Below are positions 34,612-63,319 of a stretch of DNA of 64,000 nucleotides, piece after piece. Origin of the DNA: Bryum argenteum. Taxonomy: Eukaryota > Streptophyta > Bryopsida > Bryales > Bryaceae. The notes under the pieces were generated by a model. The model was not told where the DNA came from. It made no database searches and saw only the letters and a list, made by a program, of their open reading frames with translations. The stretch is from the NCBI GenBank assembly GCA_037043015.1, contig CM073321.1, positions 36,916,420 through 36,980,419 of the forward strand. Direction: 5' to 3'. Position 1 is the stretch's first letter. Each line of letters starts with the position of its first letter. The position numbers were made by a program, and so were the translations under genes.

Positions 34612-34651
<40 letters not shown>

Positions 34652-39697: not shown

Positions 39698-39779
39698 ATC
39701 CAACTCTGAATATGATAGTTGCAATTTGAAATTGAAATGCTCCTAAACCGTTGGATGCTAAAAGGGGCCATCTGGCCAT

Positions 39780-41722: not shown

Positions 41723-41864
41723 TTTGCAAGCATTGACAAATGTGAGTATCATAATCTCAAAGAGGATGTGAAACACCTTTGATGAGAAAGATCCTACGAG
41801 TAATACCCTTAAGAAATGACAACGAAAACAATTAAGGTTCAAAAACGCCTGCAACAATGATTAA

Positions 41865-42790
41865 TTATCCCCCGGGCAGGGATAATTCCACAGTAAGAGC
41901 AGATTTCAATCCAAGCAATTATCTCTGGCCCGGGGATGATTATGATTGGCAAGAGATTGTATATCCTATAGCAGACAATTATTATCCCTGGCTTGGGGTT
42001 AATCACTTATAAATCGATAACAAAATGACGATTTAAGTGAACGAAGATACATACCCACGATCCGGGGATAAATATAACTGACTGTACATATCCCCGACGC
42101 GGGGAAAGTTAATTCACTATTGCATGATAAATTCAACTTTTTGTAGCTAAACTCAAACAGAGAAACAGTCTTCTCCTAGCCAGGCATAAACATTGGTGGG
42201 CATTGTGAACAGGGTCCAGAGATACATAATGACGAATATATATCTCGGGGCTTAGGATAACCTATAATGATATAAGCTAGCAAAATTACCTCCCTCCCCC
42301 GGGAATCAACTTATGCCCGACACGGGGATAAAAATAGCCGGAACTATCTATATCCGAGTCAGAACAAACCAAATATGATTAGGGATCTATATATCCTCGA
42401 TCCGAGGACAAATTACCCCCGGGTTGGGGATAAATACGAACTCTGGCATTATCTTTGGGCCGTGATAATGCGAAAATTATCAAAGATGATTTTATCCTCG
42501 ACTCGGTGATAAAGTCGACGTCTGTATTTATCCTTGACCCGGGGATAAAGTTATCTCCGGGTCGGGGATAAATACAGACGCTGGCTTTAACTTTGGGCAG
42601 GGATAATGTTAAAATTACTAAGGATGATTTTATCCCCGACTCGGTGATAAAGTCAGCGTCTGTATTTATCCCCGACCCGGAGATAACTTCATCCCTAGGT
42701 CGGGGATAAATACAGACGCTGACTTTATCATCGAGTCGGCGATAACGTGAATATTCCTAGGGATGAAAGTATCTTTGATACGGGGATTAT
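41865..42790. repeat. Dense array of palindrome family B (TTATCCCC...GGGGATAA), about 19 copies
   Basis: Copies such as TTATCCCCCGGGCAGGGATA (41865), ATTTATCCTTGACCCGGGG (about 42525), TTATCTCCGGGTCGGGGATA (about 42550) and TTTATCCCCGACCCGGAG (about 42665) recur every 25-80 bp. The centre varies (GACCC, GGTC, GACTC); the outer TTATC and GATAA are conserved. The array lies upstream of, or in a 5' intron of, the minus-strand DUF7869 exon. The same palindrome reappears at 52318-63250. Confidence 0.85.
42636..42739. repeat. Near-perfect 42-bp inverted repeat built from family B palindromes
   Basis: The left arm 42636-42677 and the right arm 42698-42739 are reverse complements with one mismatch, separated by 20 bp that hold half-sites themselves. 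It could form a cruciform or RNA hairpin. Confidence 0.85.
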
Positions 42791-42799
42791 CATATATCT

Positions 42800-44519
42800 T
42801 TGTATTCCATTGGTCTAAACCAACTACGGGATAATAGACTAAGTATAAGTAGTAAGTCATGCGAAAACGATGAAGAAAAAAGAACTTAAGTACAGAATAG
42901 GGTAACCATGCATACCTAGACCGTGCAAATTCGAAGAGGAAGAAGTTCGCCACGAAGCTGAAGAAATAGCAGAATCGACCCGTATCAACGTCCGAACAAT
43001 CTCCTACAAAAGACTCTGACTATGAAGGTACAAAATTGATCATACTAGCTTGAAAATGCTCGCGCATCCTAGAGAACCCAATACTGCCCTCTTTGAGAAA
43101 CAACGACACACACGCGCGCTACACCAACACCATACACACCAAACGGCAACAATTAAACCTAGACGCGAAGGCAACACAAAAAAGCCGCAACTCAGTCGAG
43201 CAAAACAAAGAGAGAGAAAGAGCTTCCCAAAAGTGACGAATAGAACTTAATCCAAGCTCCAAGCTTAACGGCTAGAACGTTGACCTGTCACTACTCGAAA
43301 CGTGGCGCCGCCGTCAAAGGAAAATATTAAAGACTCTACTTTTTTGGCGAGAAACTATTTGGGCGGGAAGCCATTTCTGAAGTTGCCATATTTCAGCGGA
43401 AAATCCATATACAATTGCACAATTTATATTTCTTTTTACTTTTTTGTTATAGATCTTTACAAAATTCTAATCAAAGGGAAATCTTACAATATATATTGAA
43501 CATTATTTAACTTTACTTAAGTAAGGATTTAAGGTTCAAAATCAATGCTTTAGGGTTTAAAGTTCCGGAAAGGATTTTGGATTTAAAGCTAATATATAGG
43601 GTTTAAAATTTAGAATTTACGGTTTGGGGTTTACCGTTAGAATTTGGATCTAGGATTTTTAGACTAAGCTCCAGGGTTTAAGGGTATGTTTAGGGTTTAG
43701 GAAATAGAGCTAAGATTTATGGTTTAGAGTTTACTAATATTTTAGTTATTCACATATAAATATATAAACTATGTATACTTCATGTATTGTTTTCTATGAA
43801 TTGACTTTTGGTTATTTCAATATTGTAATTAATTTAATTCATTTAATAATTTCCTAGTTCAAATTTAGAAGTGTTTATCAATTTATCCAAAAAGAGGTGG
43901 TTCTTATGTAGTCTAAGTAACATTTTGAGTGACCAACATGTAATTTTAGATTCAAAATTTATTATGCAAAGTGTATGACCATTGAATGAGATATTTATAA
44001 CACCAGTAATACTTTTGAAAATATTAAGTTTCTTATATGGATATATCTTCTTTTATAAGCAATTCAACTTGAGAACCAATAAAAGAAAATGCAAATTTTG
44101 CTTGGTTATTACTTACGTAAATCCAATTATGATCACTTTAAATTGTTAAATAGGACAACATTCAACGTCATGAAGAATCTATTACAATCAAAGTCATGAG
44201 GTTGTTCAAACAACAAGATAAACGTAAGAACAACTTAAATTTAAGAGGTATGGTCCAAATACAGACGATGTTCAATATTTAGAGGTTAAGTTTAGGAAAT
44301 TAAGAGCTTTGAAAACATCATACAAGGGAGTTGAAGTTTTAAGATTACTCAATTTATTCATAATTTTGTTTTTTTATAACACATACATAAACATAGGCAT
44401 GCCCTCATCATGACCTGACCTATCATCATGAAGAGGCCAAATGACCTCCTTTGCCATCATTCACCCCCTTGAACACTCAATTCCATTTCCCCGCTTGCAA
44501 TTTTCAATTACTTTGCTCA
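42800..44519. other. AT-rich stretch without a recognised gene
   Basis: The family B motif stops near 42790. A degenerate TTTAGGG-like patch lies at 43520-43735. A short minus-strand frame (42666-42953) is made largely of palindrome-array sequence and is not called. Confidence 0.5.
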
Positions 44520-44680
44520 ATTTTCAAATAACTCAATTCTAATCTTAGAATATTACTTTTAGAATATTTGAGTACTAAACTTAGATTATCATATCAAATT
44601 TAGTAGATAATCAAGTTAGAGTTCCTCACCTTCTTTACTAGATACTAATTTTAGAATATTTCACTTAAAACAAGTCTTGT
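44520..44680. repeat. AT-rich dispersed repeat G, copy 1
   Basis: Shares AACTCAATTCTAATCTTAGA, CTTTTAGAATATTTGAGTAC and ATCAAATTTAGTA... with copies at 48690-48905 and 51060-51190. Confidence 0.75.
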
Positions 44681-45196
44681 GGGACCTCAGATGCAAATGG
44701 ATTTGTTGAACATTCAAATATTAGGTGAAATTCCTCTACTTGAACATTGGAAGCGTTTACCTTGGGACTTTGTTTTTTGAGGATTTGGATACTTGTGAAG
44801 AAGATATTGTTTCACTATAGTTTTTGATCAATTATGGCAATGATTTTCTCTAAGAAATGGTACTAATTAGTACCACTTTTTAGTTTTTAGGTATTTATAT
44901 ATGGTTCCACCAGAATTTCCACCAAAAATGTTTGGTTCCACCAAGCTTAATAGAAATGTTGGTCGAGAGCCAAGTAAAAATTCCACACTTCTCCAGTATT
45001 GAATGGTGATTTTTATATGAGGTGCCACAATTGCTCCACATAAATATGAATTGGCAAGAAATCAGTTATATTTTTGAAAATATTGCATAGAGACTAAACT
45101 TATGAATTTTCATATGATAAAGTGTATGCCTTTGAATGGGCATCTTCCAAGGCTCACCACTACTCCAAAACTTGCGGAGGAATGGAAACTCATCAT

Positions 45197-45388
45197 TTAG
45201 TCTCCAAAAGTCCCACACATGTTGGGCCCCCGCTCTCTTTCTAACATCTCAACAATTTCTATTACCGTACTCATGTCAGCACCTATTATGTCGGCTGGTA
45301 CCTGTCTGTACTGTCCATCATCAAAAAAGAAGGGCAATACTGTATAAAATTGCTTATAACGTAACGTCATATTCCAAGAAACCATCAT
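45197..45388 (-). other. Unrecognised short frame at the edge of the gene-fragment mosaic
   Basis: The minus-strand reading FFFDDGQYRQVPADIIGADM is followed by STVIEIVEMLERERG. It has protein-like composition but matches no family I can name. It lies on the same strand as the PUS1 and GT14 fragments and may be another captured piece. Confidence 0.25.
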
Positions 45389-46189
45389 TGCAAGCGGGAG
45401 CGACGTTCAAGAATTCATTCTAAAATTTTGAGTAGCCAAAATTCAAATTTGAAATACTGCTGTTATTGTTGACCCTCTGCAGGAACCGGTCATAGATCTA
45501 AATTTGGGAAGTACATGGAGGGTTACACAACCAAGAGAAGCAGTCCTATGCATGTACCCTCCTCCATATCGTATAGATTTCAGAATCCCCAATTTTGTGT
45601 TCTCCTACTCTAGGGCTATTTGTAGAAATTACCAAAAAGCATCGAATCTCTGGACAAAGAAATACACGATAGCGGGAACATGTAAAATACAAGTGTTTCA
45701 ATTTCAAGAAACAACATTCCTTCTAGAAAGATCATCTACGTGAAACAAAGACTCCCTTGCAATCAGGGGTCGAAGAATTTGGCAATAGCCATTGAATCCT
45801 ACTTTCTAGCTAAATGAGGTCTTACTCACCCTCATTACACTGATAGCTATGATACAAGGCTTAAAAAGAGCCAAACTGAAGGAGAAAATTGTCAAGCTCT
45901 GCCCCAAATGTTTGAAATTGCAAAAGTCTTGACGGCTCCAGTGCAAACATGGTAGAAATGAAACATAATGTTCACTGCCCTTGTTATGCGGCACTGATTA
46001 GTTCACCGCTCTTGCAAGTGCCGACATGAATGTGTAACACCTTGTTCTTCATATCCAGAACCTTGGCACACTGTCTCCATGGTAACTGCAGATCGTATCC
46101 ACCGTTATGGATAATGGAAAGTTGAGACTAAGGTAATTTTGCAATGAGTGGTTATTGAGCACGCTTTGTAAAGAGAAGAGAGCAAGGGC

Positions 46190-46536
46190 TTACGAGAAAA
46201 ACTTGGTGGACGCTCGTTCGCTTACGACATGGATGCTCTGCACTTTTGATGGACCTAACCCTCTTGGCGAGCAGTAATTCTTCGTCTTCTCCTCGTCCAC
46301 GCTCGCAAGCCTCTTGTACACTGTAGCATCCAAGAACTGCTTGCAACTTGCTGCATCTCCTCCATGTAGAACAAGTACGGCTTCTTGCACATTGATGTTT
46401 CACTTAGTCGCGTGTTGAATGCAAACTCCAATGACTTCACGTCCCTGTTCCATGCTGTAAACATCGTCTCCACCCGAGTCAACAACCGCGGCAAAATAAT
46501 TTCAAGGAACACCTGCACGCACCCATGAAGTAACAT
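46190..46536 (-). other. Unrecognised coding-like trace downstream of the GT14 fragment
   Basis: Overlapping minus-strand frames read VETMFTAWNRDVKSLEFAFN and, in another frame, AVLVLHGGDAASCKQFLDAT then GLGPSKVQSIHVVSERAS. Composition is protein-like. It may continue the GT14 fragment or be a separate gene piece; no family is recognised. Confidence 0.3.
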
Positions 46537-46560
46537 TACAATCAGATGGAAGGCTGGTTA

Positions 46561-46995
46561 CCTGTCCACGAAGCTCTTTTAAGAGGAAATAACATAATCA
46601 TACATGCAGCTGAAGTTGTAAAGCGGTATACAGCTGCAGCAAATAAAAGACCATCAGCGTTAGTCACACATAGAACCCGAAATGCTTGACGTGATGCAAG
46701 TACATGTGATTTTGCTGAGCCTGCCGTTGAAAGCAGGAACCGTCTCATTAACATTGAGAGCAGTCGTCATCATACATTCGGGCAAAGCTGAACATTCAAT
46801 AGTTACTCCCCATGGTGTAATGATTGCCAGTGATCTCGCAACAAAACTTTGCCTAAACCGTCGTAAAACCAAGTGATGAAATTATATACATGTGAGAAAG
46901 AAGGAAGAAGCGCTCATTTAAGGGGTCTTTTAAAGCTTCAATTAACAAGAGCATCTTCGCCTGAATCATGCTCGCCTCTCCCCAAACTACCTGGA
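46561..46995 (-). pseudogene. GT14 (core-2/I-branching type) glycosyltransferase fragment, two exons
   Basis: The first exon, from an AG acceptor near 46992, reads VVWGEASMIQAKMLLLIEAL then KDPLNERFFLLS. The second, after a CTGCAG acceptor near 46633, reads IPLYNFSCMYDYVISS and, after an in-frame stop, KSFVDR. This matches the plant GT14/DUF266 core (SMIEAER...DPLNQRFVLLS, SC.PLYNFSYIY.Y...KSFVD). These Golgi enzymes are thought to transfer sugars onto glycans or glycoproteins. Only this core is present, with a stop inside, so it cannot work. Its intron is kept, which means it came from genomic DNA rather than a retrocopy. Confidence 0.7.
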
Positions 46996-47140
46996 AACAC
47001 AATGTTTAGGACCTTCTTAAATTCACGCAGGCCCAACAACAGCGTCTACTTCTTTACTGAAACGAAACCGGCACAGAAACCTCAGCTTCAACGGCTCATC
47101 AAACAGATAACATCAACAAATCTTTTGAGTAAAAAACAAT

Positions 47141-47640
47141 CATGGAAAGATCTGTCCTATGGTGCTCACTCCCTTGTCCGTTTGAGCTGCTCGCATCCAG
47201 TCCACTTTCCAAATGTCGCCAAAATTGCACTGGGCCATGGCATTTGCTCAAAAGAGAGCTTGCTCTAGCTCACCTTTGATGGTTATTGCTCCGGGGTTTC
47301 TTTGCATACCTTGGTAATTGGGCAGCAATTTTTGAAGGCTTCGAATCATTGCCTGACCTTAGTACAACACATCAATGATGCGACGACGATTGAACGCTCG
47401 CTGGTTGGATCAATCGGCCTCCGGGCGGAAAAGAAGACCCTTAGTTCTAGCTTCAATTTAGGTCTCTACTTCCTCAATTTTGGTTTCTACAGTTTCGGGA
47501 GGCAACACATGCGTATCAAGCTTTGGTTTCTTAGCCTCTACGTCCGCCGGTGCGGCATCAGTGGAAGATTCTGCACCATTCTAAGGGGCCTCAGCTGCAG
47601 CAGCGGCAACCGTTTCTAATCTCGTCCTCTTCTTCGGCTG
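47141..47640 (-). pseudogene. PUS1-like tRNA pseudouridine synthase fragment
   Basis: The minus strand reads NYQGMQRNPGAITIKGELEQ, then ALF, a stop, and NFGDIWKVDWMRAAQTDKGV followed by STIGQIF. This matches the eukaryotic PUS1 core (GYQGMQRNPG.KTIEGELE.AL...RAARTDKGVSA.GQ). The catalytic Asp of RTDKG is kept, but the preceding Arg is Gln here (AQTDKG). PUS1 enzymes make pseudouridine in tRNA and some mRNA. Upstream, a basic/Ala-rich N-terminal part is readable (QPKKRTRLETVAAAAAEA). There are several in-frame stops and the rest of the gene is absent, so it is a decayed partial copy. Confidence 0.75.
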
Positions 47641-48118
47641 TGGCTTGCGCGCAATCTTGCTTGAAAGACTGCTACAAATGCTGCTTTTTCCGAAGCTATT
47701 GAGCAAAAGCCATGAAACTTAAACCCTTTCTTGGATAGCCTCTAAAACCCTTAATCCTTCAAAACTGTGATTCCTGAACAGATATGCTGATTCTTCACTA
47801 GGGTGCCTCTATCAAAAATTTAATCAAAAGATTCCCTAATGGAAAGTGCATTCTCGGAGGATACGTTGAACGCGAATTCTGACCTAGATAGACGAGATAC
47901 AGAATTCGAACCGAAGCTAGATCTTTCTTTCGTTGTAAACAACGAGGTGCAGCTCAAATTGTGAACATAGCCTGTAACCTAAACATGTAAAAAGCAAGAT
48001 TGGAAACCTAAACTAGTGAATTGCAACCGAGTGTAAGCCCTAGAGTGATTGAAGTTCACAAATGTGAACCTAACGAGCTAGAGTGGCCGAATCTTGAGCT
48101 CAGAGTGGAGGATTTGTA

Positions 48119-48445
48119 CTAGGAGAGGTGATCGGTTGCGGGGGAGTCTTCGGCTTTCTTCTTGATGAGCAACGAGTCGCTGAGGATCTTGTCAGCTTTG
48201 AGCAAAAAGCTGCGAGATTCATACAAATTTCCCAAGTCGCTTATGATAGCGGCTAGGGTTAAATTTCAGGAGGCATTCTCCGCGACTGTGAGCTTGGCGA
48301 TGACACCCTCCAGCAGCTTCACGGGACCATCCTCGTCGTCCTTGTCGAGCAGATCCTCCACTCGCATCAACCATCCTTCCAAGCTCACCTCCGCTGCTGG
48401 CGTGCTCAGCGTCCGCTCCTTGAATGCTTGGTTCTCCTCCGCCAT
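48119..48445 (-). pseudogene. Unrecognised gene fragment with ATG and in-frame TGA
   Basis: From ATG at 48445 the minus strand reads MAEENQAFKERTLSTPAAEV then SLEGWLMRVEDLLDKDDEDG and KLLEGVIAKLTVAENAS. A TGA follows, then the same frame goes on (AIISDLGNLYESRSFLLKAD, KILSDSLLIKKKAEDSP) to a TAG at 48119-48121. The second half looks weakly like helical TPR repeats. Codon use is GC-richer than the flanks. It is probably the first exon of a host gene, copied and decayed. Its family is not known to me. Confidence 0.45.
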
Positions 48446-48689
48446 AGCTTACGAGTCTTAAAAAACCAAATTTGGAATTTAAGCTTGGCTTAGGAATCTA
48501 CTGCTTCTACTGCTTCTACTTCTAGCCTTTGGTTTGATCCACGGGCCTTCGTCCCCGTCTCGTCCTCGACGCCATAGCCAGGGATTCTGTTGCAAACTCA
48601 CGCGACCACGTTCTCTTCACGTTCCTCTTGTTCGCAAGTTTTGTTCCCATGTGTTCCCGAAATTGGGAGCGTAGCCGTGTTCTAGAGGT

Positions 48690-48905
48690 CTCATAATAAC
48701 TTAATTCTACTTTTAGAATACTACTTTAAGAATATTTGAGTATCATACTCAGAATACTAAACCTAATTTACTAAATACTAATTTTAGAATATTTCACTTA
48801 AAATAACTCAATTCTAGTCTTAGAATACTACTTTTAGAATATTTGGGTACTATACTTAGAATACCATATCAAATTAAGTAAAAAATCAAGTTAGAGTTAG
48901 TTAGT
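48690..48905. repeat. AT-rich dispersed repeat G, copy 2
   Basis: Contains two partial units of the repeat seen at 44520-44680 (AATTCTA..TTAGAATACTA, TTTAGAATATTTG, ATCAAATTAAGTA). Copies 1 and 2 bracket the host-gene fragments. Confidence 0.75.
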
Positions 48906-49033
48906 CAAAATTGAAACAGGCTAATGAATCTATATATACAAGCTGTCAAAATTATTTTTGTTTTTTAATTGATATAACCAAAAATTTACATGTACATGAT
49001 ATTACAAGCCGCCAAAATTTCCATTACATGATA

Positions 49034-50590
49034 TTACTCATTGCTTTGAGGTGGATGCACTCCTGATTTACTATCTTTCCACTTCATTTTTTCCCCTCTT
49101 TTGAATTGATTTATGGTTCTTGTATGCAATTGCTTTTTGTTCACCATAGCAATACCAACTTTGTAAACTTGGTCACCAAGTGTTTGCTCTTGGAACTTCA
49201 TTGTTCCATGTACATACATTTTACTATGAATAAATAGAGCAGCTCCCTTGTTTGTATTGAACTTGAGACATAATTGAAATACACTAAAGTATTTTCCTTT
49301 TCGATCTCCTCTTGTAAACCATGATATTAGTGATGCTCATATATCCTCTTTGTCAATGTGAGCTTTGATATATGTGTTTTTACTTAGGTGCATCCGGTGT
49401 ACTTTTGTAGGATACTCTTCAACACCTATATATATAGAATTAACAGGTGCATGTTGAACTTCAAAAAAGTTTTCCTTTTCCTTATCAAATTTTGGTAGAT
49501 GGTGCCAAATGTAATAGCCAAGAGCATTACCAAGATCTAAAACTTTCTTGAACAATGTTTGATACCTTTTTTCTATTACTCTTTACTACATCACCTTCTG
49601 AACCTCCATGTGCTAAAAATCCATGACTAGTAAATGTACATGTGCCTCTTTGTGCATTATCATCAGTTTTTTTCCCTCCATATGGAGATGTCTAAAAATA
49701 GGAGTTATCAGTAGCCAAGGTATGTTGATAACTTAGTCTATTATCCCATGTCTTTTGAAAATAAACCAGCATTACATGATTGAATTTTATGTTTTGAGTA
49801 TTTATAACTTTTGTATTTATAATATCATAGCCGTTCAATACTAACACATTTTTCTATTGAATAGGGAATATATTGTCATCCTCATAATTCTCCTCCCAAT
49901 TAGCTTCAAATTGTGGATCTATTAAATATGGTAGTGAGAAATTCTTCTTTTTCGTTTTTTCTGCTGATATGTTTGAATATGAAATCATAACTTCCATCAT
50001 TTTTTTCGATACCAAACTTTTGTAAAGTCTGTTTTTCCTGAATGGAATTTTTTTCAAATCTACAATTTAGAATTCTAAATGGAGATTCATCCTTTGATGT
50101 GTTGGAGTTTGATTTATCTTTCAAAAAAACCACAAGTTCATCATATACATTGTGAAATTCTTCCAAGCTTTTTATTATTATGCCTTGTGTCAAACTGAAA
50201 TTAAAAATCTACTCTGTATTTTTTTCAATCTGTGTATCTTTGTCGGCGTCGCATATAGGACAAATTGGAGGATCATAAAGACATTCTTCACACAATTTGT
50301 GACACAAATGTACATAATATTGTTGCTTTTGCAAAATCTTCAGATTGGTAATTTTGGTTTTATTTACAAAAACCGGCTTGAAATAAGGGTGTCTAATATT
50401 TTAATACATGGTACTATAAATGGTTTGGAAAACTATTTTTCTTGCATGTTTAGGAGTTTTACATCCTTGGGCACTGCCATTATCATAAAACAATTCTATT
50501 ACATTTTCCTTTTTTAGGAACTTTGCTTTAATCACTTCTTGGATTGATTTGTTTGACTTTTTAGGTGTTTGAGCATGTGTTTTGCCATGT
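49034..50590 (-). pseudogene. RING-like finger plus probable 2OG-Fe(II) dioxygenase (TET/JBP-like), decayed
   Basis: The minus-strand trace starts near 50590. It first shows a RING-type half (YYVHLCHKLCEECLYDPPIC, then PIC) and a Lys/Asn-rich linker. The C-terminal part reads KVHRMHLSKNTYIKAHIDKE, then SLISWFTRGDRKGKYFSVF, GAALFIHSKMYVHGT and VYKVGIAMVNKKQLHTRT. HID followed about 60 residues later by VHGT gives the HxD...H iron triad of the double-stranded beta-helix fold. The basic residue after it (YKVGI) could bind 2-oxoglutarate. Such enzymes include TET/JBP and AlkB nucleic-acid oxygenases and protein hydroxylases; I place this one only at fold level. About four breaks interrupt the frame. 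Base composition is strongly AT-rich, unlike the neighbouring fragments. Confidence 0.45.
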
Positions 50591-50848
50591 TATAAATATT
50601 GCAAGCCTACGCTCCAAAAAGGCAACTATATACTATCTCCCAAAATCAAAACATTATAATCTATAATTATAACAACTTTCTATTATATACTTACACCTTT
50701 CTTGAAGGCTTATTAAAATTAGAATTATAACTATAAATACAAAGTAAAAGTATACTAAAACTATGAAAAATTATTAAAACTAATAAAAAATATGTATTTT
50801 TTTAAAAAAATGTAAAAACAAAATCATATTAAAAGTATAAGAATCCCA

Positions 50849-51060
50849 GATGCACCGCTCGGTGGCCCTAGACGCACTGTTGGGGGGTCCTAGACGCACC
50901 GCTGGGGGGCCGCAAACGCACCGCTCCGGGGGCCCAAAAGCACCGCTCATGGGCCCCACACGCATCGCTCGGGGGCCCCACACGCATCGCTCGGGGGCCC
51001 CACACGCATCGCTCGGGGGCCCCACACGCATCGCTCGGGGGCCCCACACGCACCGCTCAA
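50849..51060. repeat. 22-bp minisatellite (GGGGGCCCCACACGCATCGCTC type), about 9-10 units
   Basis: The last five units are almost identical; earlier ones diverge. Each contains GC(A)(C/T)CGCTC and a GGGGGCCCC palindrome. The open frames read through it are repeat by-products. Confidence 0.9.
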
Positions 51061-51190
51061 ATAGAATACTAGACCTAATTTACTAAACACTTATTTTAGA
51101 ATGTTTAACTTAAAATAACTCAATTCTAATATTAGAATACCACTTTGAGAATATTTGAGTATTATACATAGAATTCCATACAAAATTTAG
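51060..51190. repeat. AT-rich dispersed repeat G, copy 3
   Basis: It directly abuts the minisatellite and shares ACTTAAAATAACTCAATTCT, GAATATTTGAGTA and CAAAATTTAGAAC-like blocks with copies 1 and 2. Confidence 0.75.
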
Positions 51191-51319
51191 AACATAGGCG
51201 TTAAATAAAAGTTAGAACATACATATTAAGCCAAATAAGAAACAAAATATTATATACACAAGTTAGAACTTAGAAAAATTATAAAAAAAAAGTAATTAAA
51301 AAAAATAAAAAATAAAAAT

Positions 51320-51373
51320 GCATGCCCATGATGATGTACATGGGCATGCTCATGTACATCATCATGGGCATGC
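51320..51373. repeat. Perfect 23-bp inverted repeat with 8-bp loop
   Basis: The left arm 51320-51342 (GCATGCCCATGATGATGTAC...) and the right arm 51351-51373 are exact reverse complements, separated by GGCATGCT. It could extrude as a cruciform or fold as an RNA hairpin. No T-run follows on the plus strand, so it is not a bacterial-type terminator. Confidence 0.9.
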
Positions 51374-52310
51374 TTTCATTATGACAGGGCCATGATGGCC
51401 GACTGCGCCACCATTTGCGAGCGCAATCCTTTCCTTCACTTCGCGCCCGCACAGTGTCTTCCTCCACGCATTTGTCATCGTCGTTGTTGCAGCGCATCTT
51501 TCCGCCTGCTCTCCGAGCATGTCATCGTTTGCACTTGTCATCGTCTTTGCGCTTATTTTGTCTTCGTTCCTTTGTCGCTAGACTCGTTGCGACGCTTTCC
51601 TGCCTGCTCACGCCTTCGCTTGCCCTAGCACGCACGCATATAGTTACTTTGCTTACCTTGCCGATGCTTCGAATACTTTGCATATGTTAAGAGCTTGCTC
51701 TGTGGTCATTGTCTCCACCTGCTCTCGTGTACACCGTCTGAATAGACTACTTTTTGGAAATACATTTAAGTTTTTGAGAGCTGCGGAAGTGGAGTTTTTG
51801 AGTTTTTGGAGAAGGATGGAGCTAGCAAGAGCTGCGCATAAGGGTTTCGCAAGTTTGTGAATGCTTTTCATTAAATTTGTAGTTTTGCTTTTGTGCTTTA
51901 GTTTTGAATTTGTAGTTTTACTTTTGTGCTTTTGTTCAATGAACAAATGTATTGCAATGTGCTTTAGTTTGCATTGTTTGCTGCAATGTGCTTGTGTGTG
52001 CATGACTTTGCATAGGTTGCATCACTGGTTTTGTATCAGTTTGGATCCAAAGCACTTTACTGAACAGAGGTTACATTTCTTTTTTAATTTGTGTATTCGT
52101 ATACTTTTTGAAGAATCCACAAGCGTTGTCGCTCAGCATTGTTGTCAGGTGATTCATGTCTACCTAATTCCTTGTATTGTGTGAATTGCCAATGCAAATT
52201 ACTTGTCGAATTGAAATCTATAGCACTGTTAGATTTTAGGTTCTAGTGTTAGCACATATTAGCAATTAGGGTTCTATTATCCTCGCACCATCTATAATTT
52301 GCTTCTACTA
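51374..52310. other. Stretch without a recognised gene
   Basis: A minus-strand frame of 116 codons (51653-52003) has lysine-rich repeats caused by a small tandem duplication at 51880-51950. It matches nothing I know. Confidence 0.4.
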
Positions 52311-52317
52311 AATGAAA

Positions 52318-52800
52318 GTTATTCCCGACTAGGGATGATTTGCCTCTAATTCTCAGCAATTATCCTCGGTCCGGGGATAATTTGCTCCATATATCTGAAG
52401 TATTCCCCGGTCCGGAGATAATCCGCTACTATTTATTAGCAATTATCCCTGGTCCAGGGATAATTTGATCTCTATATCAGCAGATATCTCAGTTCCCGAG
52501 ATAATTTTCCTCGAAGTAGTAGAATATATACTCTAGGTATGGAATAAGCCACTTACTTGATACAATTATTCCCGAACCCGAGATAACATGCTCTACACAT
52601 TAGAAAGATACTATCTTGCGAAACTATTTTTCTACAGAAAACACATTTTACTCCCCCTCCAGAAATAAGTGAACATACGCTTTTTAGTCTGTAACAATCT
52701 AAGTGTTGCAAAATAAACCAACAATGGCTACAGTTTAGTGAGATAATGTAGTAAGACTCAGCCAAAAAAACGCGTTATCCCCGGGTCGGAGATGAATAAA
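52318..52800. repeat. Palindrome family B cluster, about seven copies
   Basis: Copies near 52318, 52360, 52400, 52442, 52486, 52567 and 52776 (e.g. TTATCCTCGGTCCGGGGATA, TTATCCCTGGTCCAGGGATA). The cluster sits immediately upstream of the first recognisable exon of the ParB/methyltransferase-like gene, matching the position of the array relative to the DUF7869 exon. Confidence 0.85.
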
Positions 52801-54265
52801 CGTACGTTCCTGCAAATTATTCGTATCGTTGGAATAAACTAATGATTTAATCCTTCATGCTTACAACCTATCGTCTCTGGATTTGCAGAACCAAGATAGC
52901 AGTTGCAGTCACAAATACAAGCCCTATGTTCTTGGTTATGGACCTATTCCAGAATCCATTTGGGGACACTCCTCAAAGAAGACGACATAGAGGCATCCAA
53001 CCTCTTTCAATTCAAGGATGTCGTTGTGAGCTGGACCCTGAAGATTGCAAGGAACACTTTGCTTATCATGCATTGTGAGGAAATGAACGACGTCTACATT
53101 CCTTTGCATCAAAACGTTTGAGTTGTAGCTTTCGAGCCACACCGGTCCAAGTTTGTCCTTATTTGTTGCCACCAGAATTTTTATGAAAAGGACAAGGACA
53201 TCTACGAGTTCGGAATTATTGTGGAAGTTGGAACATATTGTGGTCCCAGTTCGACCCGGATGGTTTTGTCGAGCACCTTCGAAAGGTGCAGCATGGATTC
53301 TTTGATTCATGGGTAAACCTTCTCTTTTCCTGAGGCGAGCCTAAGGCCGATGACCTTACGCGGATACCAAACCGATTGTTGACAAATTTGTCAAAACAAC
53401 CCGCTACATCCAAGAAGAAGGCTTCTCCAGCGAAACCTGTTATGTTAGTTTCGGATCAGAGTGTGCAGACAGATAACCCTGAGTGGTCAACCCCAGCGTG
53501 GTCGACAAGGAAGAGGATGTCGAACGCACAAGAGCAACCAAAGCCTCAGAGGAAGAGAAGATGCAAAGCATCTGAGGCACCGAGCAACGTCTCGGAGATT
53601 CAAAAAACGGAGGCAAGCCCATCGAAGAAGAAGAAGAAGGCAAAGAAGGACAAGGACAATGGCATCGACTAGGCAAAGATGACATTAGCCCAGACCGAGT
53701 TCCAGAGGATTACAATGTTTCCTTTCTCTTCAACAAGGAACCAAAAGCAGTTACATTAGAGCAACTGAGCCGCGGGAAGGCCCAGTGGACGATTCGAGCG
53801 TTTGAGGAAGAAATCAAAGATAGCCTAAAAGTATACCTCGCTACGTTAGGAGACATCTGAGCTCGCGAGACTCTTGTCATCACACCTATCAATGAGAACG
53901 GTGATCTTCTCGATAGAAAGCCTAGGAGTTGGGACGAGATCAAATACAAGAGTTTTGCAATCATTGACGGCCAGCACTCCGTTGAAGCTGCTCGGGAGCT
54001 AATTAACGAGAAGCTCCCAGAAAACCGACGTGTATTCCTTAAGACTTGGGATGCGTACGTTGTCTATGACAAGGACCCGGCTAGACTAACTGCCATATCT
54101 GCGCACTACAACATTACAAATCCCCTTACCCATGCTCAACCGACATGGGGGAACCGAATTCAACCAGGGCGCTCCATCTGGATCGATTGTGGATGTCCTT
54201 CAAATAGGTCAAATGAGTCTGAGCGTTGATCCAACGCAAGCGTCTATAACCCAAAGAAGTACAAG

Positions 54266-54649
54266 GTATTTTTGTCGAACGTTTTCATTACTATCCTTAA
54301 ATCGTAGATATTTTGGTTATGTCGATCGAGTCATTCCTTGTGTATGGCTAACTCATTACCATATTATCTCCGACCCCGGGTTTTGCCAATTCGTCTTCAA
54401 ACGTGTGTTTAGCCTGGATTATCTAATTAGTATGTATTTTCTACCCTCGGAGAACTTTCATTTGTTCCTCGAATATGTATGCTTGCGAAGGAAATCGGAA
54501 TTGGAATTATCTCCAACCCGGGCATAATTTGATTCAATTTGCATTCCAGTCTGTTTTTCCTTTCAAAGTTATCTCTGGTTAGGAGATTTGTTATTCTTAT
54601 GCGTTCGTGTATTCTTTCTCATTATCGGCCGTTGTAATTACTACATTAG
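54266..54649 (+). other. Intron of the ParB/methyltransferase-like gene, with three family B palindromes
   Basis: Donor AAG|GTATTT and acceptor ACATTAG|GAG keep the phase. Palindromes lie near 54363, 54508 and 54568 (TTATCTCCGACCCCGGG, TTATCTCCAACCCGGGCATA, and a diverged one). Confidence 0.55.
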
Positions 54650-56057
54650 GAGTTTGTCAATCTCTTGATCATAAGGTTCAAGAACATTGACACCAACAAA
54701 GAAGGCAAGAAAATCCAGTGCGCCGCAGACCTGAAGTATGAAATCCTCATCATAACGCTTTAGGATGCGTGGTTTGAGAAGTTCAAGGAGTTTCTAGAGA
54801 AGCATGCCGTTGAAAATCTCATCGACCCGGACACGGGAGACTACTACTACAAGAACAGGTCTTGGTTCTCCAATTTCAAGCACCACATCACCCGAGAATT
54901 CTTCCAAAAGCTTGGGAGGCTAACAGACAAGGACATATACGAAATGTCTTGCCTTCTAGTCGATGTGTCCAACAAGCCTGGTAGTTCTTGGTACCCGAAG
55001 TTGTCAAAATCAAAGTGCAAACACTATCACTTTGATCAACGGTCTTGTTTTGAGTGGTGCCTTTGCCGGAAGTCGAAGCGTATAGCCTTTCAAGAAATGA
55101 AGGCTGTAAAGTCTTTGCTTCCATTCTTCAAAGAAGATTCGTATGATATTGAAGAGGAGAAGTAGAAGTTGTGGAAGCTGGCTCATGGATTTACATCCGC
55201 GTCTTGGAATATGCTGCTTAGTCACATTGACAAGGGATTCTACTCGGCCACGCTGCAGAACCAAGGAAAGCTGAAGACAGCGAAATATTTGGAGGACAGG
55301 TATCCTGGCATGGAGAAATTCTTCGAGAAGTTCATTCGCCTCCACAAGAATCCGGTCGAAGAGGTTGAATGGTATTACCTTTGTTCGGTAAAACTTACTA
55401 AAGAAACAACACTGAGCCATCAATGGGCAGTACCATTGGAGAATGGCATCTGCGGGCTTGGTGTGTTTGACCTTCGGGACACCATATACAGCGCCAGCAA
55501 AAGGGTGGACATGAAGATTGTTGCACTTCAGTACGTCATGAAGGCAGCTCAGGGTCTAAAAGACCCGGCGTACACGGCTCCCCCCATTTGGGTCTAGATA
55601 GCCAACGGGCCTTTGAAGGCCCTCGTGACTTTGAGAAATGTGCACCAACACTATTATCCAGGGCACCACATGGAGGTCTCGCAGTATAAGAAAGCTATAA
55701 ACGAGAAGCTTTTCAACGAGACAGTTCCAGAAAAGTCTGCGAATGACATCTGCCTGATATACCTATTCAGGAAGGGAGATCCCCACACCGACAGTTTCAA
55801 GAACACGATCAAACCTGAGTACAAGCCTGCGTCGGTGCCATACTATTCGGAGGCTGGGTTGTTTGCTGAGACAAAATGGATATCAAAACAATCAGAACTC
55901 GAGATGAAGTTCTACATAGACATTGTTCACAAGTATTTCTAGATTGGGGATTCAACATTAGGAATCTTCCCCGGTTCGAAAATCATGGTCGCGTCCGTTG
56001 TAAGTGCCTATCATGTATTATCCTCGGACCGAGGATAATTCTTCACTGTCCTATTTT

Positions 56058-59024
56058 CACTATAAGAAAACCATCGAAATTTAAATGTCTTAAATAAGAC
56101 ATTTAAAGTCGATTAAACGTCTTAAAAATGGCTTTTAGACTAAAAATTGGATTAGTGTTTAAAAAGACATCAAGAAGACATTTGAAATATAGGAGGATGT
56201 CTTGGAGAATATGACGTGTCAAGGTAAACTTGGGAGGGTAAGAAGTGGGTCACGTGGAGGACACATCAGCGCCATGTGGACGGGCAGTGCCACATAACGA
56301 TGAATTTCATCCTAATGTGGAGTTTTCCGTGGTCAATTAAATCGTGACGTGGCGGCACCAAAATCCAATGTGGATTTGGGAAAATCTGACGTGGCATCCG
56401 GGAAAATCCGACGTGGCATGCCACGTCAGCAAAGTTTTGAGTTTTGACTGCTTTTATATTGAAATAATGGTCATAAAAGACATTGAAAGACATCTAAGGA
56501 TGTCGTACGAGACATATAAGGATGTTTAATGAGACCTTTTACAAAGTCTTATGAGACATTTTACAATGTCTACGGTGATGTGTTTAGTAGTCTAAGCACA
56601 TCGTCATAGTCGTCCACTCAGACATTGTATTGATTACTTTTCATATTGCATGATGTCTTAGATGATGCTTTGCAAGATGTGTATATGATGTTTTCTGTGG
56701 TCTTACAAAATGTTTTATAAGATGTCTTATATGATGTTTTAATGATGTCTGCGAGGATGTTTTGGAGGTGTTTTTTGTGATATTTCACAAAATGTTTTTT
56801 AGGATGTCTTCGAAGACGATGTCCCTCCACGATGTCCCTCTACTACTATCGCTTGCGGTCAATACTTCTACGGTCATGTGCATGTCCTACCGCTGCACAT
56901 GTTCAATAAGTTAATATCGACTGCATTTAAACAAGGAGTTTGTAAAGGCAAAAAATTGTGATTTAGTTTCATTTAATTGCACTACCTAGGTTGATATAGT
57001 TTTCATCATGACCTCAAGATATGGACATAGTTAGACATTCTTGCGGACATCTGCTTAGACATTCAGGCAGACATCCTTGAAGACATCCTTGAAGACATCC
57101 TTGAAGACATCCTTGAAGACATCCTTGAAGACATCCTTGAAGACATCCTTGAAGACATCCTTGAAGACATCTTTGAAGACATTCTGGAAGACATCCTTGA
57201 AGACAGCCTTGAAGACATCCTTGAAAACATCCTTGAAGACATCCTTGAAAACATCCTTGAAGACATCCTTGAAAACATAATTGTTGAAGACATCATTGCA
57301 GACAACCTCATAAACATCCATGCAGAAATCTGTTCGCGGCCTCAGATCGTGTTTTGCCGCCTCTATGAAGTTGTGAAAAAACAGCAACTCACTTACTTTG
57401 GCATACTTCTTCTATGTTCATGTGTTCTGTAAGCTTTCCTTACCACTGTACATGGACCCCGACCCCTCATGTCCACCCAATCAACACAATTAGACATACT
57501 TTTAGACATCTTCATAAACATGCTCTAAGGCATCCCTGCAAACATCATCATAGACATCTGATGACATTTTCAGGTTATCAACAACAACTAATTAAGCTTC
57601 AAAGTTCTTTCCACAACAAAGCAGATATTGTAAGTCATAGGGTTTCTTCCATAACAAGTTTTAGGTTTTCTTCTACAAAAAAACAAATACTACAAGTCCT
57701 AGGGTTTCATGTATATGATGCTTTTGAAATCTAGTAACTCTCAAGTTTCATGACTCTCTCTACAACTACTATTCTCTTATTGTACTTAACAATAATTTTA
57801 AACTGAATGGAAACAATTTTGAAATCCTCTACACTTTAAACACTAATTCCTTAGAAAAACTAAGGCAGAAATGAGCTTTGTCCAACCTCTACTTCCACTT
57901 AAAGGTGTCAAGACCTAACTATGGTGGGGGCAACAAACCTTAACAACATGAAGAAGCAAACCCTAACCTCTACACTCTAAACACTAACTCCTTCTAAAAA
58001 TGAAGGCAAAAATGAGCTTCGTGTGGCCTCTACTTCTACTTAAAAGTCTTATGACCTAACTATGGCGGCAACAACAAACCCTAGCCGCCTCTGTTCATCC
58101 ACTGAAGTCAATGAGAATCATCCCAATAATACAATGTGTTCTATGATGTTTTATAAGGCATCTATTTAAATGTCTACAAAGACAGTGCATAGACATTATA
58201 TGACATGTACTCTCGTCCGACGTGGACTTTTGTTTACCATATAGATAAATAGCTGTAAATTATGAAATTAATGAAATATCCACATACAATTTCGTTCATA
58301 AATATGCAAAAATTGCCGTATATATTTAAATAACTATATTTGTTAACTAAATTATTTTACTAATTAAATAATAATTGAATAATAATATTTTAATATTTTA
58401 ATATTAACTAATAAATATTTTTAATTTTTTTATTTTATTAAATTTTTTTATTAATATTTATTATTAAAATATTCTCAAATATTCATATGATATATATTTA
58501 AGATTAAATTATAATATATAAATATTATTATAAAATTTGGACCAATGAAAATATCTGAAATTACAGGATTAATATTATGAAATTCATATTATGAAATTAA
58601 TATTTTGATATTTTTAGTTGTACAAAATAAAATTATAATGCACATATAACAAAAGAGTATTTAAAAGGATGAAGTTCATTTTTTTGTCCTCCTACAAGCC
58701 GCTGCCCATTATCATGTTTTTTTTTACAACCGGACTACTTTCTACCCCCATACCGATAACTTTCAAAAAATTTTACTTGGTGAAACCGAAATCTCTTGCC
58801 AACGTGGCAGTTTCATGTCTAACGCGATAACTTAATAGACAGCTTATAAAACATCCACATATCTTTGGATGTCTTCAAGTCATCCCGCACTCCTTCTAGA
58901 CGACATCTTCAAAACGACAAGTTATCTTCTCATCTTACAAGACATTTTGCAAGACAGTAAGACATCTTAAAAGTGATCTACCCAAATCTTGAGATGTGGA
59001 AAATTCGATGGTTATCTTATAGTG
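56058..59024. mobile_element. CACTA-type nonautonomous element, 2967 bp, complete ends and TSD
   Basis: The left end CACTATAAGAAAACCATCGA and the right end TTCGATGGTTATCTTATAGTG (reverse-complemented) match over about 25 bp with few differences. Both flanks show TTT, the 3-bp target duplication typical of CACTA elements. Subterminal regions are packed with AAGACATC/GATGTCTT in both orientations. At 57058-57290 a 12-bp unit (GACATCCTTGAA) runs in tandem about nineteen times. The core near 58030-58130 (ATGACCTAACTATGGCGGC, AGCCGCCTCTGTTCATCCA) is shared with the element at 24102. No transposase is encoded. It lies inside an intron (56000-59219), which would be about 250 bp without it. Confidence 0.9.
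57058..57290. repeat. 12-bp tandem array (GACATCCTTGAA) inside the CACTA element
   Basis: About nineteen units with a few variants (GACATTCTGGAA, AACATCCTTGAA). The unit length equals the 12-bp TNPA-binding motif of maize En/Spm, which suggests a transposase-binding array. Open frames on both strands are repeat artefacts. Confidence 0.9.
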
Positions 59025-59489
59025 TTTGCATTTATAGCTCTAGGTAAAATAGATTTGTTTTCATATTTGCATTGTTATCCTTGGTTCGGTGATAAATATC
59101 CATTATCGAGAAATATATCTGCGCTTTGCTTGACTTCCTTATCATCTTCATTTATATTATCTCCGACTCGGGGATAATTACTCAAATGCCATTGCTGAGT
59201 ATGCCAATCTCTTTTTCAGATCCGGGGGCATCGATATTACGGTTTGGTTGACTCCCCTCACCTAGACCGACATGTCGCAACGCTTAAGAAAGCAGCAGAG
59301 GCCGACTGGCGCGATTTTGTGCACCATAGTTGCCCGTATGACAGGAGTGCGCAAGAGTTTTCCGAAAAGAGGCGGAGGCCTGCATGCTCACAACCACGAG
59401 TTCAGGGGAGAGCGATCTTGCATTTGGGTCTGCTGCGGCACAATCAAACGATCCTTCGAAGTCTCTTGCCGCAGAGACGACATTGAACC

Positions 59490-61520
59490 TGGCCTATTCA
59501 CAGGTTGATGAAGATGTCGACAAAGGTGACGAGGAGGAGGAGGTGGAGGAGGAGGACAAGGAGGAGGACGAGGACAAAGAGTTGGTTGAGGACATGGCAG
59601 AGGATTACGACAATAGTGGTCAAGGATACAATTCCGTCGATGAGGACTATGTAGATCCCGACTTTTTTTATCCTAATGTGCCATCTTAGTTCGAGGAAAT
59701 TCGAGAGGAGTCCTTGCAGCCTGCTCTTGCAGAAGAGGATGCCCCTACGCCACTTTCGGCTACTGCACCGCCTGCTGCCACTTCGGCTCCTTTGTCTCCG
59801 TCCTGTTGCTCCATTCCTAGAGGAGCGGGATCCTATTGTCGAATCTGAGACCCCAACCATTACGACAGGGTCTATGATGGGTCATGTTATCCCCGGTTTG
59901 GAGATAAATCCTGGACAGCTGACGGAGGGCGTCTCATCCCCCGCGATAGAGATTGGTTCTTCTCGAGGGACGGAGGGCACTTTAGAGATTAGGCAACCAC
60001 TAAAGCGGCGGCTGGAGCTTAGTCCATGTGGCAAGGTTGCACGTGTTACCGGCGATGGAGCATCGTCTGCTATGCCAACATCATCAGTGGCAGATGCAGT
60101 CTTTACTCCTCATAGCAAAAAATTGAATAAGCAGGGGAATCCTATCTTCGCGATAGTTGCCCCGGAACACGCGTAGATTGACCTTGGCAGCGACTCCGAC
60201 GATGACGATGAAGTGATGAATCTTATTGCCACCCCCGCCTTAGAGCTAGATATTGCCACTCCTGCCTCAGAGCTAGATACGACGCCATTGACAGATGTGA
60301 AGGAGGAGATGGTTGCAGTTTCTGCTGCAAGTCCCTTTGTAGGTCCCTCTCCAAGTCCCTCTGCAGATCCCTCTGCAGTCCTAGCTACGGTTCCCCTTGC
60401 AATTCCAACTGCAGTTTCCGCTCAAGATCCCGCTCGATTTTCCGTTGCGATTCCCATAATCTTCAAACCAGCAGGTCCTCTGGAGAATGCGGCTGGGCAA
60501 GCTCCTGATCCATCGTAGCCAGGGAGGAAGGTCGCTAAGCACTACCGAGAGGTGAGCAAGCTCAGAGCAGAACAAGAGAGGGCTTAGGAGGAGAAGAATT
60601 GCCGTCTGGAGGAATCTAATCGCCGATTGGAGGAAAATGAGCGCCTCCTCTAAGAGTAGGCCGAGGCGTTTGCATATCTTGCGAGAACGAATCTCCCTCT
60701 CCCTGACCACCTTCACGAGATTGTCTTGGCATCAACTCAGCTGGATTTAGAGCCAGATAGGCCGACACCTATGACCGCTGCGGTGGAGCCTATTCTAGTG
60801 CAGACTCCTGAGCCTAGTGTTCCATGTGATCCTCTTCTCCAAGATGTCGGAGATATTTATCTTCAACCCGGGGATGTTTTGGCCTCTCTTTTGTCCTCCC
60901 ATCTAGCCTCCCTCAACGTCGGCGTTGCAGCCTCCCCTGCGGAAGCTCCTCGGATTCATCCTCAACTCGGGGATGATTGTATGTCAGCTGCATCCGAGCC
61001 TGTCTCATTGCAGCAGTCAACGCTTAGAGACCCGGATCTCGAGGAATCACAAGACGTCATCATCGGTGGTTTTGGGGCCGCTTTTGAGGGGTGCTCTGGC
61101 ACCGATATGAATGAGTCAATAGGTGTACTGGTTGCTGACACCAAGATTTATCCCCGATCTGGGGATAATCTTCCTCCTCCTTCACCGGTTTGTCTGGCTG
61201 AAGGTACTAGTACGGCTATTGGTGAGGTTGGCGCCAACGTATTTCACGAGTTGTTGACGGAATCTGGGCTCGAGCTCTCCCGGGACGACGTCTTTGTGAA
61301 TCATTCCCAACTGGCGAATGATATTGAGATGACAATGCTCAACAAGACCAGCGTCCAAGAAGACCATGCGGTGGTGAATGACAAGCCTGCGGACAACACT
61401 GCTTGCACTACAGACGCAGAACCTCAGGAAGAAAATGTTATTGCTGGCGATGATGAGGAGCGTTTGGATTACTCAAAGAGCCCGTCATCGAGACAACAAC
61501 GAGAGCACACGACAGAAGTT
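59490..61520 (+). pseudogene. Acidic and Ser/Pro-rich low-complexity coding region with embedded palindromes
   Basis: Starts with a run of Asp/Glu (DKGDEEEEVEEEDKEEDEDK), then Pro/Ser/Ala-rich text, a basic patch (PLKRRLELSP), a coiled-coil-like stretch (CRLEESNRRLEENERLL) and a 272-codon open frame at 60726-61544. A GAAGTT|GTAAGT donor lies at 61520. Several in-frame stops, mainly TAG, break the earlier part. Four family B palindromes lie inside: near 59887, 60856, 60954 and 61144. The last three are read in one frame as I(Y/H)(L/P)(Q/R)xGD. It could be the C-terminal tail of the ParB/methyltransferase-like gene or the front of the HAD-like gene. No domain is recognised. Confidence 0.45.
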
Positions 61521-61879
61521 GTAAGTGCTTCACCTCATGAATAATGTTTTTCACGACTTGCATGTATTTGATTGATTTTTGTTTGGCTGTCTTCAAAAGT
61601 TCGATTCCGTTTGTTTGAATGTGGCTTCTATGACTATTATCTTCTGCAGCAAATGAACAATCCCTTCAAAAGTTGATTTAATTGAAGTTGTTCACCATCC
61701 TCGTGGCGCATCTAGTGTTGTAGATTATTTTCTGACAGATGCAGTCTTTAGGAGTAGGTTATTGACTTTGAATAGCACACATTTACATGTTGTATATCAA
61801 TTTTTTGATGTATAATATACACACACATTTTTCTTGACCTTTGTTATTGTCATTTGATTTTCTTGTATTTGTTTGTCAG
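61521..61879 (+). other. Probable intron
   Basis: GTAAGTGCTTC donor and TTTGTTTGTCAG acceptor bracket a T-rich stretch without coding signal. No palindrome copy was recognised inside. Confidence 0.5.
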
Positions 61880-62705
61880 CCCTCTCTTGTAGAAACTGTT
61901 CTGCGCCCACGGGCCGTGAGATTGCCTATGAATTCCAGCACTATACCCCCAATGGCTCGATAGCAATGCATTCCGTCATTGAGGATTTGTGCGGATCCCA
62001 CCGTCTCTGCATTCAATCAGGTATCCTCAATTTATTGTTTTCTTTGTTTGCCAGGTAGAATCAGTGTCGAACTTCCCATGCCTTTCGCGGCCCATGTCTG
62101 CCGTCCAGTCGGAGCCGGTTAAGTGGCTAAATGTTGTCATTGACATCAAAGGAATCCTTTGTCAGTGTGCGCATATGCAAGCACTGATGAAGATTTCCGC
62201 CATAGCCGATCCTCGCGACCGGCTCTACGGGTTGGGCATCCCAACCATGATACCTCCCAAGTTGGTGTATTGCCGACCGGGGGTTTGGGGCTTCTTGGAG
62301 TTCATGTCCACTCATGTTGCGAGGATTGTGATATGGAGCTCCATGAAGAGGTCCACAGTAGAGGGTGTTGTGGACTTTCTCTTCAGTGGACTCCAAGGCC
62401 CTTTGAAATCCTTGGGCAGGAGTCTTGTACCTCAATCAAGGTTAGCGAAGGCGTCTTCCTGGTTTCCCCAACCAACAGTAGCAAGTTAGAGGATATATTT
62501 GAAAACCTTGTCCTCTGCGGTTTTTCTCCTTTCTTGCGGACCGCCTGTTATCAACGTGGACAACACTCTCCTCAAAGACGACAGTCTTGAGAAGAGTATT
62601 TGCAACCACACAAGCAACTCAATCTTCCTTGAGCCTTGGTTGAGGTCAAACAAGAACAATGATGTCCTATTGACGTTACTCGCACCCTGGCTCCTTGCCC
62701 TCTAG
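61880..62705 (+). pseudogene. FCP1/NIF-type HAD phosphatase-like gene, degenerate
   Basis: A short exon (PSLVETVLRPRAVRLPMN) precedes the HAD region. VKWLNVVIDIKGILCQC stands at the DxDx(T/V) position, with the second Asp replaced by Lys. YCRPGVWGFLEFMSTHVARI and VIWSSMKRSTVEG follow as the usual 'RPG...FL......W(T/S)S' block. NTLLKDDSLEKSICNH and FLEPWLRSNKNNDVL match the final DD and the C-terminal part. The pieces lie in three frames, so the copy is broken. Known members dephosphorylate proteins such as the RNA polymerase II tail; loss of the second Asp suggests this one would not. The proposed 34-bp gap 62021-62054 is too short for a normal intron and is uncertain. Confidence 0.6.
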
Positions 62706-63319
62706 GCCAATTGCAGGCCGAGCAATCTTCAAGCTTATGTGGACTCCAATAGGATAGGTGTCTCGCCCCTTAACGGACATAGCAGCCTCGGAAGTTACAT
62801 TTTGGATGGGATGAACCGGTCTACTAGGAACTTAGGATTAACTTACGAGACGCCAAATTTTCCCCACTTCACCTCCAGATGACTTCCGGACTTTCTTTGT
62901 TTTGTAAATTGGGAGCTGTCTAACAACTTGTACATAGGATCTCACAGTACAGTCTTGATTTTCATAATAAAGTTGATATGATATTTAAAACATTTTTCAT
63001 TGTTCACGAATTCTCACATTATCTTTCTTCTCTTATACATTGTTTATTTGAACCAATTGTATTTTCATGTTATGAGTAGCATAGCTGTCGATTTTGTTTG
63101 GTGTTCACATTTATTTCCTGTTGATATTTGTTACGTAATCGTTGTTCTGCTTTGAAATCGCTCTCAGAATGCCCGGCCCATGGAAATTCATGTTGCTTCC
63201 TCGTTGCTTCTGCATACGTGTGCCCGCATTTTTATCCCCGAACCTTGGATAAATTGTAGTATTTGTTTGATTACCACTCCCTATTTATACTTTGTTGTTG
63301 TGGGTAAATCTTGATCAGG
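62706..63319. other. Spacer with one family B palindrome
   Basis: No gene was recognised. A palindrome (TTTATCCCCGAACCTTGGAT) lies near 63230. Confidence 0.5.

Follow-up and report, generated by a model that had tools for sequence, protein, structure and literature searches.

A 64-kb window of Bryum argenteum holds two DUF7869-type elements, each with a palindrome of its own

When one short palindrome recurs dozens of times within a single region, what reads it, and to what end? The question is raised by a stretch of 64,000 nucleotides from Bryum argenteum (GenBank assembly GCA_037043015.1, contig CM073321.1, positions 36,916,420 to 36,980,419 of the forward strand), here called the window, in which an earlier note had reported about 37 copies of a 20-bp palindrome saturating a region that encodes a ParB/DNA-methyltransferase-like protein, and had suggested that this protein recognises, marks or clusters the palindromes. 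We found that the palindrome (class 1) is private, within the 64-kb window, to one mobile-element region (element 2), and that a second element at the left end of the window (element 1), overlooked in the earlier inventory, carries a different private palindrome (class 2) at 686-3744, by another DUF7869 gene. The two classes agree in length and in their outer bases and diverge inside, and, judged by profile and protein comparisons, DUF7869 is the gene visibly common to both palindrome-bearing elements.

The class-1 palindrome measures 21 bp, not 20, and has an odd centre with one central base (consensus TTATCYYCGRNYCGRRGATAA; 19-bp core TATCYYCGRNYCGRRGATA). With up to three mismatches, the core is present at 35 places in the window, all of them in 41866-63251, where chance would give 0.44. 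At a threshold of at least 15 of the 21 consensus positions there are 39 sites, 38 of which lie within 41800-42800 or 52300-63300 while the remaining one begins at 52277; each of ten Markov shuffles had between one and five sites. Raising the threshold to at least 16 of 21 leaves 31 sites, all inside these two intervals (shuffles, 0 to 2). A symmetrised weight matrix likewise returned 39 sites of at least 9 bits, none of them in 1-41864 (mean of 3.7 over 20 order-2 shuffles), and, left of 41865, five weaker sites of 5.6 to 8.1 bits, the top class-1-like site in element 1 being that of 8.1 bits at 1197. The array described in 41865-63250 is thus borne out by consensus, weight-matrix and core counts alike (35 to 39 copies, depending on the method), and the claim that none occurs elsewhere in the window holds for class 1 at the thresholds used. 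Among viral contigs, the strict class-1 pattern was found at one place on one contig, which we took as chance.

The placement of the copies can be followed on the genes of element 2, given below with introns that were inferred by eye from splice contexts and reading frames, their bounds being good to a base or two; we write 'ParB' gene for the ParB/methyltransferase-like gene of the earlier note.

40850-41848, minus strand: 5' coding part of a DUF7869-type gene, truncated at 40850, with two in-frame TAG
41849-42915, minus strand: inferred leader (5' untranslated) intron of this gene, 1067 bp, 17 class-1 copies
52148-52888, plus strand: inferred leader intron of the 'ParB' gene, 741 bp, six class-1 copies at 52361-52776
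53576-54265, plus strand: exon with the 'AIIDGQHSVEAAREL' stretch, the ParB signature of the earlier note, with two in-frame TGA
54266-54674, plus strand: inferred intron of the 'ParB' gene, four class-1 copies
54675-55999, plus strand: exon with a terminal glycine motif 'GDSTLGIFPGSKIMVASV' and four in-frame TAG
56000-59218, plus strand: inferred intron of the 'ParB' gene, three class-1 copies (56019, 59076, 59158), divided by a CACTA insertion
59219-61524, plus strand: C-terminal low-complexity/coiled coding region, four class-1 copies in open frame, in-frame stops
62253-62690, plus strand: match to the NIF (FCP1/dullard-like) phosphatase domain, next gene or 3' exons, spanning an in-frame TAG at 62487
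63233-63251, no strand assigned: rightmost class-1 palindrome in the 19-bp core scan

All 35 copies are within element 2, 30 in inferred introns (17 in the minus-strand leader intron and six, four and three in the introns of the 'ParB' gene), four in an open frame and one at 63233, which brings those in inferred noncoding sequence to 31. The word 'saturates' suits the leader intron at 41849-42915, with its 17 copies in 1067 bp, and fails for the 9232-bp interval that separates the two genes (42916-52147) and for the 2967 bp of the CACTA insertion (56058-59024), neither of which holds a copy. The splice contexts of the leader intron are AG/GTATG and TTGTTGCAG/G (slashes marking the boundaries), and positions 42388-42727 of this intron are taken up by a 138-bp tandem repeat. 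The first five of the six copies in the 'ParB' leader intron step by 41, 42, 41 and 82 bp. The four open-frame copies (59888, 60858, 60957 and 61149) are spread over two reading-frame registers, indicating that it is a DNA word, not a peptide, that recurs. Element 2 may extend past the end of the window.

The class-2 palindrome, TATCGGCYGCCGGCCGAYA, came to light when repeats were sought around the DUF7869 gene of element 1; it is distributed over the following features.

1-2833, plus strand: DUF7869 gene of element 1 (PF25273), its 5' end beyond the window
581-823, plus strand: inferred intron of this gene, class-2 copies at 686 and 756
2834-3750, plus strand: 3' noncoding region of element 1, six class-2 copies (2853, 2958, 3064, 3393, 3522, 3726)

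With up to three mismatches, class 2 is found at eight places (13 matches over both strands; chance, 0.01), all of them in 686-3744 and all noncoding; three (2853, 2958 and 3064) are carried by a 105/106-bp tandem repeat at 2853-3089. These counts use the fixed consensus with mismatches, as a weight-matrix scan for class 2 strayed into unrelated GC-rich repeats. At the same stringency, class 1 is absent from element 1 and class 2 from element 2. The DUF7869 domain of element 1 is clear (PF25273, E=2.5e-36, 125.5 bits for a cutoff of 26), and the truncated gene of element 2, whose first in-frame ATG (41752) is about 100 bp into the exon, is related to it over the N-terminal part (blastp, E=1.6e-9, 31% over 89 amino acids; E=0.002, 26% over 61 amino acids). 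The N-terminal part alone survives in element 2, and a Pfam scan of this piece gave no PF25273 match of its own. That a second DUF7869 element has its own palindrome makes element-specific recognition more likely.

The relationship between the two classes emerges from their common layout, TATC-N11-GATA, the exact form of which occurs 18 times in element 2, three times in element 1 and nowhere else in the window (shuffled means of 0.247 and 0.066 for the two elements, respectively). With any other spacer from 5 to 17 bp, the exact counts are 0 in element 1 and 0 or 1 in element 2. When one outer mismatch is allowed and the interior is required to be largely palindromic, 28 sites remain, 25 of which are in the two elements, and the window holds no third cluster of such near-palindromes. 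The two palindromes thus have their length and outer bases in common and differ in their interiors.

Are these palindromes sites for a protein or do they act as hairpins? We compared the two arms of the same copy with arms drawn from different copies. Over 39 class-1 copies, 260 of 390 positions matched, compared with 264.6 (standard deviation 5.5) for shuffled arms; the 29 strong copies, from which ten weak ones are omitted, gave 213 versus 214.1, and the 21 copies left when the tandem block is also omitted gave 152 versus 151.7. In simulations, the test picked up 20% templating every time (60 of 60) and 10% templating in 37 of 60 runs. For class 2, the result (57 of 72 versus 55.7, standard deviation 1.4) comes from eight copies, too few to decide. 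The independence of the class-1 arms suggests half-sites that are each constrained on their own, as would be expected with a dimeric protein, and is the reason why we prefer protein-binding sites over hairpins. It disfavours, in all three subsets, the notion of small mobile palindromes, of RNA hairpins or of a long intron hairpin feeding small-RNA silencing, which we regard as very improbable even though the transcript of 42380-42800 folds far better (-207.3 kcal/mol) than 100 shuffles (z -18.1). This long hairpin results from the inverted duplication at 42492-42745 together with the tandem one (jointly 42388-42766) and has no bearing on the dispersed copies. As an observation in its own right, the inverted duplication is predicted to form a very stable intron hairpin, a possible source of small RNAs. 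Rfam gave nothing at gathering score in 40000-64000.

Among known systems, the closest parallel that we see is that of the Arabidopsis VANDAL transposons and their VANC proteins. VANC21 motifs are located in introns and upstream regions and have grown by tandem repetition, and the targets of VANC6 carry other motifs (PMC5735166). The likeness comprises a private short motif that is concentrated in introns and other noncoding sequence, tandem growth and a motif that differs by family (PMC5735166; PMC10398659), and both traits of such arrays recur here: within the window, each private motif is enriched in noncoding parts (31/35 for class 1, 8/8 for class 2), and tandem growth is seen in the 138-bp repeat of element 2 and the 106-bp repeat of element 1. 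The systems differ in that the motif here is a 19-21-bp palindrome, whereas that of VANC21 is 9 bp long and arrayed in one orientation, and in that the elements described here have a DUF7869 gene and some copies in an open frame. Pfam scans that covered the plus strand at 1-3400 and 52200-64000, the minus strand at 38600-52600 and seven single open reading frames found no MULE or VANC-like family; both elements leave the window. With regard to DUF7869 itself, no paper naming it was found in the open-licence literature.

Our current working hypothesis, which we hold tentatively and with a little less than even confidence, is that the palindromes form element-private site arrays for a dimeric protein encoded by the element, with a role in anti-silencing or activation as for VANC on VANDALs; here we infer alike the binding of a protein, the origin of that protein in the element and the anti-silencing effect. 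Outer contacts of the form TATC-N11-GATA would be common to both elements and the inner bases element-specific, and because the former are shared while the latter differ, the protein of each element would be directed to its own DNA and would pass over that of the related element. Arrays placed in introns and flanking sequence, partly enlarged by tandem duplication, would load the element protein along the element, and the loaded protein would maintain the element's expression or restore it. A broader proposition, possible but clearly more doubtful, is that DUF7869 elements make up a group of eukaryotic mobile elements not described before, with a switchable code for self-recognition: the 19-bp palindromic frame TATC-N11-GATA would be constant, the inner bases would change with the family, and an element protein that co-evolves with them (DUF7869 or the ParB/methyltransferase-like one) would read them, each family unsilencing its own copies only. 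If true, this would mean that the sequence-specific self-recognition of transposons, detailed in Arabidopsis VANDALs, arose in another group of elements, with a code longer than that of VANDALs and symmetric, and two neighbouring families that share a frame but not its inner letters would allow direct tests of how protein-DNA specificity evolves.

Several other explanations have to be weighed against anti-silencing. The arrays might serve a transposase or accessory protein in excision and transposition, with no anti-silencing role, much as TNPA sites do in CACTA (En/Spm) elements. There, the repeated motifs, which have one GC-rich and one AT-rich portion, are specific to the element, differ from family to family and are recognised by a protein of the element (PMC2613891), and the presence of DUF7869 as the one gene found in both elements would also suit such a role. 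The motifs described here are near-palindromic and, as far as seen, form no single terminal block; the copies are scattered through the introns of two genes and an open frame out to 63251. No CACTA transposase family was recognised in the frames scanned, and, among the matches listed, the sole recognised pair of CACTA ends is that of the nested insertion at 56058-59024. Since the arrays occupy leader introns and gene interiors, not one block, we favour anti-silencing or activation and consider a transposition role unlikely, although it stays a close rival because the ends of element 2 lie out of view. It appears to us improbable that sites of host transcription factors were amplified to act as intronic enhancers for genes of the element. 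GATAA-like cores are the targets of GATA or MYB-related factors, and both the leader-intron positions and the outer GATAA core are compatible with them, but the strict 11-bp spacing, the palindromy and the inner bases that differ between the two elements are not what such sites would predict; moreover, copies also lie in a coding frame and in the 3' noncoding sequence of element 1, and, with as many as three mismatches allowed, neither class recurs in the rest of the 64 kb.

There remains the idea of the ParB/methyltransferase-like protein as the one that recognises, marks or clusters the palindromes, to which we attach little credence. It draws on the presence of the gene in the same element, on its 'AIIDGQHS' stretch and on the glycine motif 'GDSTLGIFPGSKIMVASV', which by eye resembles methyltransferase motif I, and bacterial ParB/parS is indeed a case of dispersed palindromic sites of one sequence. 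The arrays, in contrast, are eukaryotic, many-site and placed inside introns, and no ParA family was among the profile matches. The domain assignment was not confirmed by the searches: the exons of the 'ParB' gene, scanned unjoined throughout, gave no ParB or DNA-methyltransferase match in Pfam (E up to 1), NCBIfam (E up to 5) or the PDB, the query for the latter two having stopped at 55945, short of the glycine motif. The best lead for ParB was PHROG 1033, 'ParB-like partition protein', over the DGQH stretch at E=0.064, below significance, and the best PDB matches, with E=0.016 to aldo-keto reductases and E=0.18 to a flagellar motor switch protein, were taken as chance. The DPPY-type catalytic motif usual in such enzymes was not spotted by eye, without an alignment, in exon 54675-55999. 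In bacteria, ParB contacts parS through its helix-turn-helix domain, whereas the DGQH-type motif sits in the N-terminal domain, which does not bind parS; this makes the link to the palindrome weak on general grounds. Pfam scans of the gene showed no helix-turn-helix family, and AlphaFold models, built for two exons from single sequences, are too poor to judge (mean pLDDT 33.6 and 35.1, unusable). In addition, the gene is not visible in element 1, whose 5' side falls outside the window. Of the recognition system put forward in the earlier note, the element-private palindrome therefore stands, strengthened by the second element, whereas ParB/methyltransferase as its reader is not supported by the searches. 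In the open-licence literature, judged by titles and abstract openings, nothing on point joined ParB-type domains with plant transposons. We also considered a bacterial or viral origin of the element proteins: a pattern for the 'ParB'-like exon fitted 194 stretches in a prokaryote-only collection of genome contigs and the exon after it one stretch in a virus-only collection, where the DUF7869 piece fitted four, none of them confirmed, and tblastn against phages gave matches at E=4 only. The lack of a confirmed relative in such collections says little.

A number of points weigh against the anti-silencing hypothesis and the common frame on which it draws. With one outer mismatch, TATC-N11-GATA occurs nine times in element 1, 39 times in element 2 and 19 times elsewhere, the last figure being the level of other spacers, and three of the 28 near-palindromic sites lie outside both elements. 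The layout comparison was chosen post hoc, once class 2 was known, the sample is two elements in one window, and the outer TATC match could be a coincidence at about 1 in 50, a rough estimate from four fixed bases and several registers. No DNA-binding domain was recognised in either of the two genes. On the side of the hypothesis, the motifs keep their CpGs, the observed/expected ratio being higher in them than around them (1.21 versus 0.87 in the remainder of the same introns for class 1; 1.46 versus 0.69 for class 2), but this retention follows in part from choosing sites by the motif. Finally, this copy of element 2 looks inactive because its genes contain 13 in-frame stops (10 TAG, 1 TAA and 2 TGA) in the five segments tallied (53576-54271, 54680-55999, 59655-61541, 40850-41860 and 61983-62486; 52888-53575 and 59219-59654, with their frame shifts, and the TAG at 62487 were omitted). 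The excess of TAG/CAG over TAA/CAA (Fisher P=0.0016, or P=0.0007 with the TAG at 62487 included) fits decay at methylated CHG, TAG derived from TGG not being separated, and suggests on that account that the copy is probably old and was once methylated or silenced.

Towards the right end of the window, the NIF match is significant in Pfam (PF03031, E=1.1e-6, 28.9 bits for a cutoff of 21.8, profile positions 33-149), and the NCBIfam dullard-like model reached only E=0.13. DxDxT is the usual motif of NIF/FCP1-like phosphatases; in the region 61983-62690 its position, before the start of the Pfam match, seems to read DIKGI, so that the product is perhaps non-catalytic. Beyond element 1, a degenerate class-2-like palindrome at 4086 was not counted among the eight copies, and degenerate plant telomere-like repeats directly follow the element at 3761-4057, with similar ones at 32058-32128. 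TTTAGGG-like repeats, together with Copia-like and plant-type genes recognised by eye, are suggestive of a land plant.

The window contains further mobile sequences. The CACTA-type insertion at 56058-59024, which lies in an intron and looks non-autonomous, has the ends CACTATAAGAAAACC.../...TATCTTATAGTG with TTT on both sides, and includes 12-bp AGACATCCTTGA repeats at 57069-57278. A hAT transposase gene with DUF659 and Dimer_Tnp_hAT domains is located on the minus strand at 36586-38841, downstream of the truncated DUF7869 gene; a search for an 8-bp duplication disclosed no ends for it, and a RING-finger open frame (34598-36145; zf-RING_2, E=2.4e-9) lies upstream of it. Between the two palindrome arrays there is a DUF604 fragment on the minus strand (46333-46521, E=1.8e-9), and a direct-repeat search of 42900-52300 showed no clear long terminal repeats. 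Pieces of a Copia-type polyprotein, recognised by eye, occupy 17330-21673 on the minus strand.

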